Position numbers and translations under genes: made by a program. The notes under the pieces were generated by a model that was given only the letters and a program-made list of their open reading frames with translations, was not told where the DNA came from and ran no database searches. A DNA stretch of 47,724 nt from Fibrobacter succinogenes (GTDB lineage Bacteria > Fibrobacterota > Fibrobacteria > Fibrobacterales > Fibrobacteraceae). The stretch lies in assembly GCA_902767785.1 (NCBI GenBank), contig CACXIR010000007.1:1-47724 (forward strand), in the 5' to 3' direction. Shown here piece after piece: positions 1 through 6,001 of the stretch (position 1 is its first letter; every line of letters begins with the position of its first letter).

Positions 1-444
1 ATGCGACAAGTCAACATTTATACACCTGAAGGCAAATTGCAGACTTCTGAATTTAATTTTTTCGGCAGCGGTGGAGCCATAAACAAGCGATTGAATCGTT
101 GCACCCGTATTTCCATTGACATCGGCCCGAATAAAAAAGCCTATTTCGTGCTATACAATAAGTGGCGATGCAGGCTCGCAACCAAGTGTGTACGCATCTC
201 CTTTCTTGAACCCAAATACGAACTGGGTTCCACATACAATAAATCCGTCTGGTTCCTTGACGATAAAGAGAAAAGAATGCTTATGGAGTTCCTAAAAATA
301 AAAAGGCCCTATGCATCTGATAACGAGCCCTCAAATAACTGGCAATGTGTTATTAGAGCTTTCAACAACAAAATTCGTGACAAATCCTACAGAATTTTAC
401 CCTACGATACACCCATCCCCGACTATACAAAACTGGAGCCATAA
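1..444 (+). CDS. Hypothetical protein, 5' end cut by window edge (paralogue of the gene at 1132-1791)
   Basis: I do not recognise this family. The 147 visible residues line up over their whole length with residues ~73-219 of the protein at 1132-1791: both contain RISFLEPKYELGS, NKSVWFLDD and a C-terminal RILPYD.PIP.Y.KLEP. The paralogue has about 70 more residues in front, so the first ATG here is probably an internal methionine and the true start lies outside the window. There is no signal peptide or membrane segment in the visible part; many aromatic and basic residues suggest a soluble protein. The stop overlaps the ATG of the next gene by one base (TAATG), so the two are likely translated together. 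Confidence 0.7.
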   Translation: MRQVNIYTPEGKLQTSEFNFFGSGGAINKRLNRCTRISIDIGPNKKAYFVLYNKWRCRLATKCVRISFLEPKYELGSTYNKSVWFLDDKEKRMLMEFLKIKRPYASDNEPSNNWQCVIRAFNNKIRDKSYRILPYDTPIPDYTKLEP

Positions 445-1115
445 TGACAAGAGAACTTTCACGCGTGCCACGCTGGGACATACTTCGGAATTTCTATCGC
501 GACTTCGATAACGGCCGCAAGTGTGGCTGTGTTGAAAAGTGGAAAAGGGAAATGCCCAAAGGTGGCCTTAAGCGAGAATTTTTCGAAACCAAAATCCACA
601 CCGAATTCCTGAAGGATCGTCACGAAAAGCTGAACAAGGAATTCCGCTGGACCTATGCGAACATAAAAAAGCTTATCGCGCTTGACCAGCATTTCAGAGA
701 ACTGCACCGGAGCATTGCCCGTACGTTTGAGGCAACCAAGAAGGATATCGCTGTACTCAACGCGAAAAATCACAAGTGGTACAGGGAGTACGAACTCGAA
801 TCGGAAATCTGCCCTGCGAATGATTGGAATATTCCCGGCGAACACGAATACATCAGCGATTTGCTTTTTTGGTACGCGAACTGGGGTTCCATCAACATCT
901 GCTCCAGTACGAACGAACACTACCCCGAACGTCATAAGATTTACCTCGTTCCCGCTTGTAAACAGATGCTGCGCATTGACAAGTTCGCCCAAAACGACGT
1001 CACTTGGGAACTCGACTCGCTTCTCTACGACAGCGATTCAAGCCTCTACACCTTCCACGACATGGTCCGCATGAGACCTGAACAATTTGAGGTGAGCTAT
1101 ACATTGAGATTTTAA
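444..1115 (+). CDS. Hypothetical protein between two paralogues
   Basis: A 223-residue protein I cannot assign. The N-terminal half (residues ~1-110) is rich in Lys, Arg, Glu and Phe and looks mainly helical, with an FRELHRSIARTFEATKKDI stretch typical of amphipathic helices. The C-terminal half contains many aromatic residues and a YERHKIYLVPACKQML-like segment. No signal peptide or membrane span is visible. It begins in the TAATG overlap with the preceding gene and ends 16 bases before the next start, so all three genes probably form one transcript. Sitting between two members of one family suggests that the flanking gene was duplicated around it or that the pair repeats as a module. Function unknown. 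Confidence 0.7.
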   Translation: MTRELSRVPRWDILRNFYRDFDNGRKCGCVEKWKREMPKGGLKREFFETKIHTEFLKDRHEKLNKEFRWTYANIKKLIALDQHFRELHRSIARTFEATKKDIAVLNAKNHKWYREYELESEICPANDWNIPGEHEYISDLLFWYANWGSINICSSTNEHYPERHKIYLVPACKQMLRIDKFAQNDVTWELDSLLYDSDSSLYTFHDMVRMRPEQFEVSYTLRF

Positions 1116-1131
1116 ACAAAAACGAGGTACT

Positions 1132-1791
1132 ATGAGAAGACGATACATTTATCAGCTGGCGGCAACAATACTGCCGAATGGGCTGGGCTATGACACCGTT
1201 GACCACGACCTGGGAATTTTCACGTCGCTACGCACCGCCAAAAAAGTTCTGCGGGATTACGTCAAGGGCGGGGATTTCTATTGCCCGACCTATAGTTTTT
1301 CCATCATGTACCTGCCCGTCGACAACGATCTGGATTATGAATCCGATAGGCAAATCAACGTCTATTCGCCCGATGGCAAATTGCAACTTTCGGAATTCAA
1401 CATGATGTCATGCAACGGGGCGTGGAGCAAGAGCCTGAATATAGACCTTCGCGCCGTCATCGACATCGGCCCCGGTAAAAAGCCGTATTTTACGCTGTAC
1501 AACCATTGGAAACGAGGACTCGCGACCAAGTGCGCGCGCATCTCCTTTCTGGAACCCAAATACGAACTGGGCTCCTCGTACAACAAATCCGTCTGGTTCC
1601 TGGACGACAACGAGAAAAAGATGCTCATGAAGTTCCTGAGAACAAAATGCAGGAGCATATTTAGCGACAAGTGCACGAACAACTGGATGAGCGTCATAGG
1701 GGCATTCAATAACGAAGTCAAAGGCGATGATGACAGCCGCATCCTGCCCTACGATTTACCCATCCCTAATTACAACAAATTGGAACCGTAG
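1132..1791 (+). CDS. Hypothetical protein, full-length paralogue of the gene at 1-444
   Basis: The protein has 219 residues and no recognised domain. ATG is preceded by ACGAGGT (about 1124-1130), a usable ribosome site. Residues ~73-219 match the truncated protein at the window start closely, including RISFLEPKYELGS and NKSVWFLDD; residues 1-72 show what that copy is missing outside the window. The protein lacks a signal peptide and membrane segments. Charged and aromatic residues are spread evenly, as in a soluble cytoplasmic protein. It is the last gene of a compact three-gene cluster and is followed by a long gap with a dispersed repeat. What it does is unknown. Confidence 0.7.
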   Translation: MRRRYIYQLAATILPNGLGYDTVDHDLGIFTSLRTAKKVLRDYVKGGDFYCPTYSFSIMYLPVDNDLDYESDRQINVYSPDGKLQLSEFNMMSCNGAWSKSLNIDLRAVIDIGPGKKPYFTLYNHWKRGLATKCARISFLEPKYELGSSYNKSVWFLDDNEKKMLMKFLRTKCRSIFSDKCTNNWMSVIGAFNNEVKGDDDSRILPYDLPIPNYNKLEP

Positions 1792-1831
1792 TGAGAAAAT
1801 GCCTTTGGGCGTTCCCCGGCCAAATCGATGT

Positions 1832-1867
1832 GTCATCCTGAGCGGAGTGCAACGGAGTCGAAGGATC
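1832..1867. repeat. Dispersed GTCATCCTGAGCG...CGAAGGATC repeat unit, in a 418-base gap
   Basis: The unit begins GTCATCCTGAGCGGAG and ends GTCGAAGGATC. Related copies are seen at 34095-34134 and, on the other strand, at 36426-36461. The remaining gap from 1868 to 2095 has no convincing gene. It contains a small hairpin, CGCCG/CGGCG at 1892-1905, and a GC-rich stretch repeating 'GCTAACG' at two places (1895-1901 and 1921-1927). The sequence then becomes strongly AT-rich up to the promoter at 2096. Confidence 0.6.
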
Positions 1868-2095
1868 TAGCCGGGTCGGGCCATACTCGCACGCCGCTAA
1901 CGGCGCACTCACCGAGCCTTGCTAACGCGAGTCTCGTCCCTTCGGGTAACTGTCCCTAACGCAAAAAGCATAAAGATTTTCCTAGTTAAGGTAATGTGAA
2001 ATTTGTGCTTGTTAGCAGGCTTTTGACCGCTAGGAATAGAATCTTTTTTTTCTGAATCCTCTCACAAAAAAATGCAGAAAAAATCATTTCAACTA

Positions 2096-2124
2096 TTGAC
2101 TTTTAGGGGCGTATTATATATATT
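2096..2124 (+). promoter_or_regulatory. Sigma70-type promoter for 2210-3752
   Basis: The -35 box TTGACT (2096-2101) and the -10 box TATATT (2119-2124) are separated by 17 bases, close to the housekeeping consensus. Transcription would start near 2131 and leave a leader of about 80 bases before the ATG at 2210, which has AAAAGGA at 2194-2200 as ribosome site. Confidence 0.7.
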
Positions 2125-2209
2125 ATGAGTAGTAGGGGCCTAGCCGCTCCGAAATGGAAAAAAGACACAATTAGCTAACTAAAACACAATCTTAAAAGGA
2201 TGGTTTTTT

Positions 2210-2584
2210 ATGTCTGAATTGAATTCTGTTGAAAAAACAGCAAAAATTCTCATCTGCAACGCATTGCTCTATGAACTGGAAAAAGAACGAGAAGTTTCTC
2301 GCTATCGGTTCAGTTATACTACACTAGCGTTCATCGCAAATCGCCAAAGACTTTCTCCTGAATTTCTGAAAGAGTTAGACGATGTTCTTGTAGAACTCGG
2401 ATGGAGTTTCATCAATATGGGAGACTCCTTCGCTATCGTAAAGACAGAAAAAATCAATCAGTGGACCAAACTCGCTTATAAGCGAGTTGAGGATCTTGTA
2501 AATTACTCTGACGAAGAAATTTCTGAAAAGTTCAAAGAATTAATTGACAACGAACCCGATTTCACAACGGAATCGGCTAGTTAG
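2210..2584 (+). CDS. Small hypothetical protein, first gene of a pair with a DUF3883 protein
   Basis: The 124-residue protein is acidic and appears mostly helical. I see no signal peptide, membrane segment or known motif. Residues ~25-75, containing YRFSYTTLAFIANRQRLSPE and FLKELDDVLVELGW, have a spacing compatible with a winged-helix or other small helical DNA-binding fold, but this is only an impression. A near-consensus promoter and an AAAAGGA site stand in front of it. The DUF3883 gene follows 136 bases downstream on the same strand, with a nested hairpin in the gap and no obvious separate promoter, so they may be co-transcribed. The pair sits in an AT-rich accessory region; a role as regulator or partner of the nuclease-like protein is inference. 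Confidence 0.65.
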   Translation: MSELNSVEKTAKILICNALLYELEKEREVSRYRFSYTTLAFIANRQRLSPEFLKELDDVLVELGWSFINMGDSFAIVKTEKINQWTKLAYKRVEDLVNYSDEEISEKFKELIDNEPDFTTESAS

Positions 2585-2603
2585 TTCAACTCCAGCAAAT
2601 CTT

Positions 2604-2653
2604 GCCGTATAGTACCGTGCATGAACCATGCTCGGCATTGGTTGCTATACGGC
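2604..2653 (+). other. Nested hairpin between the small gene and the DUF3883 gene
   Basis: A perfect 9-base outer stem, GCCGTATAG (2604-2612) with CTATACGGC (2645-2653), encloses a second stem, CCGTGCATG (2615-2623) with CATGCTCGG (2627-2635), which has one mismatch and an AAC loop. No T-run follows, so it is not a normal intrinsic terminator. It could be an attenuator, an mRNA processing or stability element, or a protein-binding site. Confidence 0.6.
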
Positions 2654-2720
2654 CTAAGAGATTGTACAAACTTCAAACCACAACAAACAATCAACCGCCC
2701 AACATAAAGGAAATCTAGAT

Positions 2721-3752
2721 ATGAATACTTTGGCAATCAAAATCCATTATGACAATCGTCCCAACCTTACCAACAGCCTTAAATACTCTATGCCACCCAA
2801 AGCAGAAGACTATGCCGAATTCTTTAATGCTGGAGTTCGAAATAATACCGGCTTAGGCTTTCATGAGTGCTTAAACTTTTATAGAACTTCAGATGGTAAA
2901 TGCAGGATTTATTTCCCTCCCACAACAGCAGAAAAGCTTTCAAAAAGAATAGGGGAACGAGTTAATTTAGTTTGGGTCATTTATAGCAATGAAAAAAATT
3001 GCAAATACGCAGAACACATCGTAGGCGTTCACAAGAACGCATTGATTTTAGCAAGTGACTCCTCGTTACAAAGACCTGATTTTCCAGAAATAGAAGGAAA
3101 CGTTCCTGAAGGAATTGATAAGGAACTATTCTATCATGCCGAAGCAGATGCGGAAGATAGCATCCTTTTTAGTGAGCCGATTCCATTTAAGCTGAAACGA
3201 TATTTTCCAAATTTAAAGACCTGGGGCTACGGCTTTCGATATATGGACGAAGATAAGTTCCGTTTGATTCTGGATGATCGTGCAGAATGTATTGGTAATA
3301 CTAGTTCCTTCTTAGAAAAGGAAGAAAAAATACGGCTTCTTGGCTGTTGCCCGATTCCAGATAAGGAACTCGGTCGCCAAGGCGAGGAATTTGTTTATCG
3401 CAAAGAAGTCGCCTTTTTAAAAGAACATGGAATGGATGCTTCTTGTGTTGAATGGGTTGCTGCAAGGTATCCTCAATCTCCATTTGACATCAAAACATTG
3501 AGATTTCTTGATGGTGTACCGGTAACCCACTATCTAGAAGTCAAGTCCACTAAAAGTATGAAGTCTCCTAATATCTACATTTCTCGCCGAGAAATCGATT
3601 TCGCAGAACTTCAAGGAAATAGTCATAGTGTTGTAATTTATGATGCAGAAACACAAACTGCCAAGTACTACAATCTAGACAAAATCCGCCAAATGTTCAA
3701 CTTGCAACCAGTTGAGTACAAACTTAAAGTAAAAAAATACAGAAATAAGTGA
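2721..3752 (+). CDS. DUF3883 (NOV C-terminal) domain protein, putative PD-(D/E)XK nuclease-like
   Basis: The protein has 343 residues. The C-terminal ~125 residues match the DUF3883 pattern: GRQGEEF (218-224), then VEWVAARYPQSPFDIK (243-258), then HYLEVKSTKS (270-279), then ISRREIDFAE (287-296) and VVIYDA (304-309). D256 followed by E273-V-K275 fits the D...ExK core of the restriction-endonuclease-like fold, and E222/E223 the helical acidic residue. DUF3883 is often found in anti-phage and restriction proteins, usually fused to helicases or ATPases; here it is joined to a ~200-residue N-terminal part that I do not recognise. AAAGGA at 2706-2711 serves the ATG. The gene follows a small protein behind a strong promoter. 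Nuclease activity is inferred from the motif. Confidence 0.7.
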   Translation: MNTLAIKIHYDNRPNLTNSLKYSMPPKAEDYAEFFNAGVRNNTGLGFHECLNFYRTSDGKCRIYFPPTTAEKLSKRIGERVNLVWVIYSNEKNCKYAEHIVGVHKNALILASDSSLQRPDFPEIEGNVPEGIDKELFYHAEADAEDSILFSEPIPFKLKRYFPNLKTWGYGFRYMDEDKFRLILDDRAECIGNTSSFLEKEEKIRLLGCCPIPDKELGRQGEEFVYRKEVAFLKEHGMDASCVEWVAARYPQSPFDIKTLRFLDGVPVTHYLEVKSTKSMKSPNIYISRREIDFAELQGNSHSVVIYDAETQTAKYYNLDKIRQMFNLQPVEYKLKVKKYRNK

Positions 3753-3869
3753 TCTCAAAACACCGGGCTTTTCTTTTTCACGATATTCTATTGGCGATTC
3801 TTTTTGAGGGTCGTATATTTTTAGAGTTGTTCTATTTCGCTTTGCTACGATTCAATGCCAATTTCCTGT

Positions 3870-3995
3870 TTAGGGATCCCATTTAAATAAATCTATTGCT
3901 TTTTGGATTACAGCGGCAAGGGATCTTCCTGAAATCATCGCAATACAGGCGATGCCACATAAAGTTGAGTTTTGTGGTTGGCGGATTAAACGCAT
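3870..3995 (-). CDS. Small 41-residue protein resembling the N-terminus of a papain-like/C39-type peptidase
   Basis: This short frame reads ATG (3995-3993) to TAA (3872-3870). It has a very strong ribosome site, GGAGG at 4004-4008, eight bases before the ATG, and a good promoter further upstream. The peptide begins MRLIRQPQNSTLCGIACIAM and ends KWDP. The pattern RQPQNS..CG.ACIAMISG recalls the cysteine-containing first motif of papain-like C39-type peptidases, where the Cys is catalytic. The rest of such a peptidase, including the His motif, is absent, so this is either the remnant of a larger gene or a separately maintained small protein. The rest of the 357-base gap (3753-4109) shows no other gene. 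Confidence 0.5.
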   Translation of the reverse strand: MRLIRQPQNSTLCGIACIAMISGRSLAAVIQKAIDLFKWDP

Positions 3996-4035
3996 TTTAT
4001 TTTCCTCCAAATAATATTATTCGGTGTTTTAAATA

Positions 4036-4065
4036 ATAATACATAAAAAATTATTGCGTTGTCAA
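4036..4065 (-). promoter_or_regulatory. Sigma70-type promoter for the small gene at 3870-3995
   Basis: Read on the minus strand, TTGACA (4065-4060) is followed after 18 bases by TATTAT (4041-4036). The -35 box is a perfect consensus. The leader to the ATG at 3995 is about 35 bases and includes the GGAGG site. Confidence 0.6.
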
Positions 4066-4142
4066 CCTAACGCATTTTGTATCTCTATTTGTCGCATTGA
4101 GTATGTATTTTGAGAAAAAATCTACCATCTCCAATTTACTTT

Positions 4143-4877
4143 ATGCTCAACCATTCAGAAAATTTCACTAACTCCGAATTCGAAGCCTGCCTTAATTTCT
4201 GGCAGCCGATTGTCAAGAAGATTTATGCCTGCAATACTGATGGAATCTTCCCGAATAAAGATGGTGTTTATGCGGCATTTGTTCGTTTGCAAAAGGCATG
4301 GCCAAATATTGGCTTTGAGATTTCTTATAAGCAGGAATCCAGGGGCTATCGCGAATGCGATAAGACGCAGGCCACCTGCATTTCCAAATCTTTTGAGGGG
4401 CGGGGTTCTATCAGCCTTATCGTGAATTGCGAGGCGGAGTTTTTAAGCATCCATTTCGAGTATGCGGATATAGAGGCGTTCAACGTCCCTTTTCGGCGCA
4501 GTCAATGTGACCTCGGCACCACTCTCGATAATCTCGCAAATTTCATCGAGGAATATCCAAGTTACTGCGAACAATCTTCAAGAATCATAACCGAGATCGA
4601 AAAAGAGCAGAAACAGGAAGAAATCGCACGGGATACAATCCGCGCGACGGTTTCGCACATTATGGAATCTTCAAAGTATTCCTGGAATTTGACCAAAGAT
4701 GAAAAAACCTTTTCGCTAGAAGTCTCAATCAACAACGAATACATCGTCGAAATGGATTTCAACACCCAAAATTACCTAGAACGAATTCCGGCATTGCAAG
4801 GTCTCTTGAAACAAACGGAAATCTTCTTAAAAGAAATTTCGTTCCCGATAACGATTCAGTTGCAAGAAAAATCTTGA
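4143..4877 (+). CDS. Hypothetical protein
   Basis: I do not recognise this family. The ATG at 4143 gives 244 residues; a TTG at 4110 in the same frame would add 11 residues, and neither has a clear ribosome site. The predicted protein is soluble, without signal peptide or membrane span. It has a Cys/aromatic-rich N-terminal half and a likely coiled or long helical stretch around EIEKEQKQEEIARDTIRATV at about two thirds of its length, followed by a short beta-rich C-terminal part. It stands alone on the plus strand, divergent from the small minus-strand gene. A hairpin overlapping its stop codon probably ends the transcript. Confidence 0.6.
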   Translation: MLNHSENFTNSEFEACLNFWQPIVKKIYACNTDGIFPNKDGVYAAFVRLQKAWPNIGFEISYKQESRGYRECDKTQATCISKSFEGRGSISLIVNCEAEFLSIHFEYADIEAFNVPFRRSQCDLGTTLDNLANFIEEYPSYCEQSSRIITEIEKEQKQEEIARDTIRATVSHIMESSKYSWNLTKDEKTFSLEVSINNEYIVEMDFNTQNYLERIPALQGLLKQTEIFLKEISFPITIQLQEKS

Positions 4878-4903
4878 AGTCGGAAATTCCGGCTTCAAGT
4901 TTC
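4873..4903 (+). terminator. Hairpin terminator overlapping the stop of the preceding gene
   Basis: CTTGAAGTCGGAA (4873-4885) can pair with TTCCGGCTTCAAG (4887-4899), with one G-T pair, and is followed by TTTCT. The TGA stop of the preceding gene (4875-4877) lies inside the left arm. Confidence 0.5.
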
Positions 4904-4941
4904 TAAGGTGCAAAAATTTCCTCCTTTAATTGTTATTCCCC

Positions 4942-4970
4942 TTGACAATCGTCATCCATGAATTTATATT
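4942..4970 (+). promoter_or_regulatory. Sigma70-type promoter for the ORF6N gene
   Basis: TTGACA (4942-4947) and TATATT (4965-4970) are 17 bases apart, an almost ideal promoter. The leader contains an 8-base hairpin, TCTCGTCT (4991-4998) with AGACGAGA (5010-5017), whose right arm runs into the AAGGAG ribosome site (5017-5022) and could affect translation. Confidence 0.7.
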
Positions 4971-5027
4971 TGTAGTGAACAAGTGTGTAGTCTCGTCTTT
5001 TTTGCATGTAGACGAGAAGGAGTTTAA

Positions 5028-6001
5028 ATGAAGAAAGATGTAACGGCGATTGCTAAACCAGAGTTCTCCCTGATAGACGAAAATATGCTCAAGTCGCGGA
5101 TATATACTATTCGCGGGCTCAAGGTCATGCTTGATGCCGACTTGGCGGAAATTTATGGATATAGTACGAAGGCTTTTAACCAACAGGTTAAGAATAATAT
5201 CGAAAAATTTGATGAAGACTTTCGATTTCAGCTGTGTAGAAATGAATACCGTGAAATTCTAGGGTCAAAATTTTTGACCCTAGAACAGGGAAAATATTCA
5301 AAAACAAGCCCTTACGCCTTTACTGAGGCATTTACATGCTTATGACCGTTCTTAAAGGTGAGCGAGCGACGGCGCAAAGCAAGGCTCTTATCCGTCTTTT
5401 TAAGCAGATGAAGGACTACATCATCGCCGAAAATCGGAATTTGTTGGGTTACGACGGCATCGCACAAATTGCCGTGCAAACGGAAAGGAACACCAAGGAT
5501 ATTGCAGTCATTCAGTCCGATCTTCAAAAGGTCATGGAAAACTTCGTCGATCCATCGACTTTCAAGCATTTCTTGATTTTGAATGGGCGGAGGCTAGACG
5601 CCGATGTTGCTTATACACAGATTTACGGAATGGCGAAGAAGTCCATCACTATTATCGATGACTATGTCGGAGTCAAGACTCTTGACTTGTTGCGTGGAAT
5701 CGCTAGGGGCGTTTCCGTAATGATTTATAGCGATGAAAATGGCTATGAATCGCTGACTGAACAGATTAAGAAAGATTTTTTGAAGGCTCGTCCTGATGTT
5801 AAATTCGACAACAAAAAAACGAAGGAAAAGTTCCACGACCGCTATATCTTTCTGGACTACGGATTAAAAGGTGAAAGGCTTTTCCACTGCGGAGCTTCGA
5901 GCAAAGATGCTGGCAATAAAATCACTACCATTATGCAGATTGAAAATACAGAAATTTATCATGTACTGATGGAAAAATTATCCGTCAAGCCTCAGTTATG
6001 A
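5028..6001 (+). pseudogene. ORF6N-domain protein gene, disrupted by a frameshift
   Basis: The first frame (5028-5345, 105 residues) is an ORF6N domain: IYTIRGLKVMLDADLAEIYG, FNQQVKNNIEKFDEDFRFQL and LTLEQGKYSK.SPYAFTE. ORF6N is a KilA-N-related, probably DNA-binding domain common on prophages and mobile elements. Intact members continue YAFTEQG-(I/V)-x-ML; here the frame breaks at GAG/GC (5327/5328) and the expected IYMLMTVLKGE resumes in another frame (5336-6001, 221 residues, LIRLFKQMKDYI...). The simplest explanation is loss of four bases (CAAG or similar). The second part ends with HDRYIFLD and a GASSKDAG segment, reminiscent of phospholipase-D-like domains. The promoter and ribosome site remain intact, so the damage looks recent, or is a sequencing error. 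Confidence 0.7.
5257..5285. repeat. Perfect 29-base inverted repeat inside the ORF6N gene
   Basis: Arms TTCTAGGGTCAAAA (5257-5270) and TTTTGACCCTAGAA (5272-5285) flank a single central T. It encodes the ILGSKFLTLEQ segment of the protein. Such a long perfect palindrome within a coding sequence is unusual; it may be a binding site for the gene's own product or a coincidence of codon choice. Confidence 0.6.

Follow-up and report, generated by a model that had tools for sequence, protein, structure and literature searches.

A predicted single-chain, modification-dependent nuclease following a small phage-family gene in a restriction slot of Fibrobacter

Introduction

Proteins of the EVE-PD(D/E)XK and EVE-HNH types have been put forward as putative type IV restriction endonucleases (PMC7641849), and DUF3883 has been called a novel restriction endonuclease (REase) domain fused to SNF2 helicases (PMC3710099). 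PMC10952713 includes PD-T4-1 among anti-phage systems of the PD(D/E)XK kind. For the regulation of such genes, PMC12255303 presents RptR, a 79-aa repressor of restriction-modification loci; RptR thus provides a precedent for a small regulator heading restriction genes.

Here we analyse a locus in a 47,724-nt stretch of Fibrobacter succinogenes DNA (contig CACXIR010000007.1; hereafter the window), for which a sequence-only reading had proposed a two-gene defence unit comprising a small protein and a DUF3883 nuclease-like protein. Like EVE-PD(D/E)XK and EVE-HNH proteins, the nuclease found here has a predicted EVE/YTH reader and a PD-(D/E)xK (in siblings, HNH) domain in one chain, in a defence context; unlike them, neither Pfam EVE nor a profile comparison picks up its N-terminal family, and its nuclease domain is of the NOV_C type, with the main text of PMC7641849 naming neither DUF3883 nor NO VEIN. 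The PADLOC candidate PDC-S36 shares a C-terminal NOV_C-type nuclease (window residues 214-334 match profile positions 155-276 of 280, E 1e-11); however, its N-terminal ~150 positions are unmatched by the window nuclease, the match falls short of the whole profile, and full members such as L032 (E 1e-97) have another N-terminal part. Text describing PDC-S36 was not found in the papers searched. The PD-T4-1 profile of PADLOC matches the NOV_C part of two related proteins (L013, 1.5e-5; L032, 6.5e-20), whereas the window nuclease has no PD-T4-1 match at E <= 1. Four kindred loci have McrBC, a type IV system, in this chromosomal slot, but McrBC consists of two proteins with an AAA-type motor, and the window locus has none. 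Like RptR, the small window protein (ORF124) would be a small regulator with its promoter ahead of restriction genes; it is, however, modelled as a winged helix and belongs to a phage family, whereas the word "winged" does not occur in PMC12255303. A protein combining an EVE-like domain with NOV_C was not found in print by a limited literature search.

Layout of the locus

The features of the locus, all on the + strand, are as follows:

444..1791, + strand: left edge of the slot, a 223-aa and a 219-aa gene (gene order compared with kin; 219-aa gene search)
2096..2124, + strand: promoter-like site TTGACT-17-TATATT, sigma-70-like (10 of 12 consensus positions; hexamers and spacing kept in genome G096)
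2210..2584, + strand: ORF124, 124 aa, small predicted winged helix of the PHROG 26231 family (PHROG profile, predicted model, dN/dS)
2604..2653, + strand: hairpin between ORF124 and the nuclease gene, arms GCCGTATAG/CTATACGGC plus an inner stem (folding compared with shuffles)
2721..3752, + strand: 343-aa predicted modification-dependent nuclease, EVE/YTH-like domain plus NOV_C (Pfam, predicted structure)
2721..3290, + strand: nuclease residues 1-190, predicted EVE/YTH-like (PUA superfamily) reader domain with motif GFHECxN[FY] (Foldseek, VIA)
3354..3713, + strand: nuclease residues 212-331, NOV_C / PD-(D/E)xK core (Pfam NOV_C, VIA)
3486..3545, + strand: catalytic motif D256 (3486-3488), E273 (3537-3539), K275 (3543-3545) (sequence, alignment A8)
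4110..6001, + strand: right edge of the slot, a 255-aa gene and an ORF6N gene (gene order compared with kin)

The promoter-like site, both proteins and the three catalytic residues are present as the sequence-only reading had described them. Both open reading frames have ATG starts and AAAGGA-like ribosome sites, and they lie 136 nt apart. At 38% GC, the two genes lie below both the window (52%) and the neighbouring 219-aa gene (49%), which fits DNA acquired from elsewhere. Five sites of the TTGACT-17-TATATT type were observed in the region against 5.6 +/- 2.5 expected by chance; sites of this quality are therefore not unusual here, and the consensus match by itself means little. Better evidence for a promoter comes from G096, a second genome carrying ORF124, where the two hexamers and the 17-nt distance between them are unchanged despite a diverged spacer (8 of 17 bases differ, counted by eye). 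The spacer between ORF124 and the nuclease gene contains no promoter-like site on the + strand.

A NOV_C nuclease with a predicted modified-base reader

Residues 221-306 of the 343-aa protein match Pfam NOV_C (PF13020), which we take to be DUF3883 under its old name, with a score of 31.6 bits (E 1.8e-7; cut-off 22.1). Moreover, D256, E273, and K275 are invariant in all six rows of alignment A8 that cover them. The nuclease reading draws on this above-cut-off match together with the constant D-ExK motif, and the earlier description of DUF3883 as an REase domain lends it published support. An AlphaFold2 model built from an 11-row alignment, of middling confidence (pLDDT 66, pTM 0.55), predicts a restriction-endonuclease-like C-terminus: in VIA comparisons, its residues 212-331 matched Archaeoglobus Hjc (Z 7.6 over 90 residues, rmsd 2.9), the SPARDA nuclease (Z 7.6), a splicing endonuclease (Z 7.6, tied top), a PrfA-type resolvase (Z 7.3), and I-Ssp6803I (Z 7.1). 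The core is not absent from the model, though these Z values, all below 8 and obtained from a model of pLDDT 66, count against it. PDB sequence searches returned no credible match.

The preceding 200 residues, which the sequence-only reading had left as an unknown part, likely adopt an EVE/YTH-like modified-base reader fold in residues 1-190. The first eight Foldseek ranks for the predicted model are EVE/YTH-type, among them 2p5d (E 1.3e-4, prob 1.00), PH1033, THYN1 with 5mC DNA, and YTH domains; rank 18 is the Thermococcus McrB reader with m5C DNA. VIA likewise gives 2p5d as the best match to the nuclease (Z 9.6 over residues 1-186; 132 residues, rmsd 3.3), followed for residues 1-190 by 1wmm (Z 9.1), 2hd9 (9.0), 2ar1 (8.8), and YTHDC2 (8.0), such that the top five are all EVE/YTH-type. 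The motif GFHECxN[FY] is constant in the nine A8 rows covering it, two of which are near-identical. Against the reader fold stand three points: the middling model; the lack of a Pfam EVE (PF01878) match to the nuclease, or anywhere in its genome; and the negative profile comparison, in which hhalign of the N-terminal family against a Pfam-EVE alignment gave P 0.12-0.44 for four alignments, with eight column shuffles at 0.35-0.91 (the EVE alignment came from 11 EVE loci, with L103 and L106 left out as their frames were not cleanly cut). As Pfam EVE and profile comparison are both negative, the EVE/YTH assignment is a structural and predicted one. It would nonetheless shift the expected mechanism from an unknown part plus a partner to modification-dependent cutting by a single chain.

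Another Fibrobacter NOV_C protein (L030, 1384-2433; 349 aa) has a different N-terminal part with a VGWYENA motif and a weak match to the reader profile; this part is possibly a distant relative of the reader domain.

Relatives of the nuclease

Full-length relatives with the same order of parts, at 36% identity, are found in Pseudomonas resinovorans, a Gammaproteobacteria MAG, and a Methylococcaceae MAG, with NOV_C above the Pfam cut-off in all three. Together with copies in Lamprocystis and a Chromatiaceae MAG, whose frames are broken, they bring the fusion of the N-terminal domain to NOV_C to five gammaproteobacterial loci. Within the phylum, nine of 167 genomes contain the N-terminal domain, in two cases as a partial or distant copy. 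The nine genomes belong to a single genus, and here the nuclease domain is swapped: the N-terminal domain is joined to HNH in Fibrobacter G057, G088, and G090, and has no recognised nuclease domain after it in G055, nor, by eye, in G075 and G092. The PADLOC profile of a type IV methyl-directed enzyme matches the HNH siblings of G057 (9.6e-22) and G090 (8.9e-5). Neither the nuclease nor its N-terminal domain has a match in the G096 genome. Relatives of the nuclease were not found in genome_contigs (single query) or in viral contigs, and the gammaproteobacterial relative had no match in plasmids or phages.

A scan of the pair together with seven neighbours, nine window proteins in all, revealed no DNA methyltransferase. 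Likewise, for six scanned neighbours of the gammaproteobacterial relatives (L013-L015), the sole methyltransferase was the Hen1 RNA-repair protein of L014, where a Hen1-Pnkp RNA-repair pair (1149-5083) lies directly upstream of the nuclease relative.

A chromosomal slot for restriction nucleases

At E <= 1e-40, the 219-aa gene on the left edge occurs in 17 of 80 genus genomes, giving a survey of 17 loci, one per genome and the window included (a further copy, G035:C17, was left out). The gene is at least 76% identical in 12 of these loci and 52-61% in the other five. A nuclease follows it in 10 of the 12 closer loci. The cargo comprises (i) ORF124 with the NOV_C nuclease in the window and with an HNH_2 protein in G096, (ii) the N-terminal domain joined to HNH in G057 and G088, (iii) a McrB-like AAA protein with McrC in G091, G056, G029, and G027 (PF10117, 4e-98, in the one McrC scanned; the other three assigned by cluster), (iv) a PLD/NgoFVII-like nuclease in G035, and (v) two HNH_2 proteins in G060. 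In G094 there is an AAA plus VWA pair with no nuclease recognised, while G059 has no such cargo after the 219-aa gene and different neighbours. At the distant loci, MmeI-like type IIG genes lie near the G076 and G037 copies and GmrSD near that of G092 (the GmrSD protein and one of the MmeI-like proteins were identified by scanning, the other MmeI-like protein by cluster). This is a restriction slot of the Fibrobacter chromosome, in which nucleases replace one another.

Across the slot loci (window 1132-6001, L008, L011, L012, L085-L091), most of the cargo consists of restriction nucleases (McrBC, HNH_2, EVE-like-HNH, EVE-like-NOV_C, PLD). Three of these loci share a cassette of a UDG-like, a 141-aa, and an HNH_2 protein. 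In a Pfam scan, neither the 219-aa nor the 223-aa protein of the left edge gave an above-cut-off match.

ORF124, a predicted winged-helix protein of a phage family

ORF124 matches PHROG 26231 (E 8e-20, profile positions 6-100 of 106). Its model (pLDDT 85.7) has the order H-E-H-H-E-E-H, with helices at 7-25, 36-43, and 50-62 and wing strands at 65-69/73-78, and thus predicts a winged-helix DNA-binding-like protein. Matches to PDB structures are weak (best Z 6.2; CtsR Z 6.0, PurR Z 5.2); among predicted viral folds, the closest are jumbo-phage proteins, some of them of the PHROG 26231 family. Homologues at 34% identity occur in Klebsiella Yonseivirus phages, ahead of a nucleoside deoxyribosyltransferase-like gene, and through a Klebsiella homologue further ones were reached in Erwinia/Dickeya jumbo phages. 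Two earlier candidate identities, Pfam Abi_alpha (E 0.08, below cut-off) and PADLOC PD-T4-6 (E 0.017, weak), were superseded by the PHROG match. Weak ORF124 matches in the genus (E <= 10) were inspected at five places; all fell within or next to unrelated genes, with one group ExbD-like by eye.

In the Klebsiella phages, the deoxyribosyltransferase-like gene adjoins the family member at L056 5004-5300 and L057 5001-5300; in the jumbo phages (L058-L061) the member comes after a gene of ~190-250 aa, three of which were scanned with no Pfam match above cut-off.

Under the partnership suggested by the sequence-only reading, ORF124 would serve this particular nuclease as its antidote, its activator, or a partner that loads it onto DNA. 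Consistent with this, the genes are adjacent on one strand with a promoter-like site ahead of the first and none in the spacer on that strand, a nuclease directly follows ORF124 in both Fibrobacter occurrences, and ORF124 is a real gene under purifying selection (dN 0.057 against dS 0.528 relative to the G096 copy; dN/dS about 0.11). However, the pair occurs together in the window genome only: ORF124 is present in two of 111 family genomes, and the G096 copy, 90% identical, precedes an unrelated HNH_2 nuclease, such that the nuclease behind ORF124 varies although ORF124 and its promoter are kept. Conversely, nuclease relatives occur without ORF124 in four other Fibrobacter genomes and in five gammaproteobacterial ones, although the empty search in the latter shows little. 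Phage copies adjoin other genes, as with the deoxyribosyltransferase-like gene, and in the window the two genes are separated by 136 nt containing a hairpin. The G096 copy and the relatives lacking ORF124 rule out a dedicated partnership as the best reading, and we consider it unlikely. The conserved co-occurrence that it predicts was not found; what stands of the proposed defence unit is a nuclease-like protein in a slot shared with McrBC, HNH, or PLD nucleases. The two-gene idea is therefore weakened, and the nuclease idea strengthened and made specific.

Further searches with the ORF124 family gave no match to its profile in 369 gammaproteobacterial genomes and nothing in a profile comparison with the nuclease family; ORF124 had no relative in viral contigs or plasmids, nor the phage homologue in plasmids.

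ORF124 is thus more likely a portable regulator than a dedicated partner, given that it keeps its hexamers and sequence ahead of different nucleases. The predicted fold is the basis on which it may be assigned a regulatory role, against which the weak PDB matches are to be set.

Discussion

We find it fairly probable that the 343-aa protein is a single-chain type IV-like restriction nuclease and that ORF124 is a portable regulator. On this reading, phage DNA entering the cell would be bound at a modified base by the EVE/YTH-like domain and cut by the NOV_C PD-(D/E)xK core, presumably metal-dependent; this would afford phage defence with no partner methyltransferase required. ORF124, expressed from the upstream promoter, would regulate whichever nuclease comes after it. 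Gene structure, nuclease family and motif, the exchange of NOV_C for HNH, the contents of the slot, and selection on ORF124 come from computation on the sequences; the EVE/YTH fold and the winged helix are predictions, and base reading, DNA cutting, phage defence, and regulation are inferred. The type IV-like reading draws on (i) the EVE/YTH-type top structural matches, (ii) the fusion of the N-terminal family to HNH as well, one such protein with the type IV methyl-directed match, (iii) McrBC in the same slot of four kindred loci, (iv) the published view of EVE-PD(D/E)XK and EVE-HNH as putative type IV enzymes, and (v) the nine scanned window proteins being free of a methyltransferase; the low GC of the pair also counts for it by way of acquired DNA.

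Alternatively, the protein could be an orphan sequence-specific or phosphorothioate-sensing nuclease instead of a modified-base reader. The G096 HNH_2 protein, in the same place, weakly matches a phosphorothioate-DNA restriction model, and PMC10609329 puts DUF3883 "presumably" (its authors' word) among type IIR groups; yet the absence of a methyltransferase among the scanned window proteins and the resemblance of the N-terminal model to base readers make this rather improbable. Least probable, and to our mind very unlikely, is recognition of modified RNA by a YTH-like domain, with NOV_C acting on RNA or aborting infection after RNA sensing: YTH m6A-RNA readers make up much of the structural match list and YTH-like domains are described in predicted RNA-directed type IV relatives (PMC11090510), but the core resembles DNA enzymes (Hjc, the PrfA-type resolvase, I-Ssp6803I), albeit with a tRNA-splicing endonuclease tied, and DNA-directed nuclease families occupy the slot.

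An extension of the preferred reading, a type IV-like nuclease under a portable regulator, is that the phage-derived winged-helix gene, with its own conserved promoter, serves as a plug-in controller of the type IV slot, behind which different modification-dependent nucleases are exchanged. As phages carry the ORF124 family, phage factors may be sensed by such a controller or may titrate it, switching the nuclease on at infection; we give this idea little credence.

The single-chain reading proposes a function, open to test, for an N-terminal domain family left nameless by our Pfam searches, and it links NOV_C nucleases to modified-base readers. It also marks a Fibrobacter slot of mutually replacing restriction nucleases, of which several are type IV or resemble that type. 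This would be of use in finding more such systems, and in choosing strains or DNA modification states for the transformation of rumen Fibrobacter.

Additional features of the locus

The hairpin at 2604-2653 folds with z -3.5 (none of 200 shuffles folded equally well), occurs once in the genome, and has no T run; a counterpart was not evident in the G096 spacer. It is a possible attenuator or processing site. At the left edge, paralogues of the 219-aa gene lie on either side of the 223-aa gene, at 1-441 (partial) and 1132-1791. At the right edge, the ORF6N gene (5028-6001) is broken into two overlapping frames of 105 and 221 aa where most kin have a single frame of 325-345 aa, the split being a frameshift or an assembly error.
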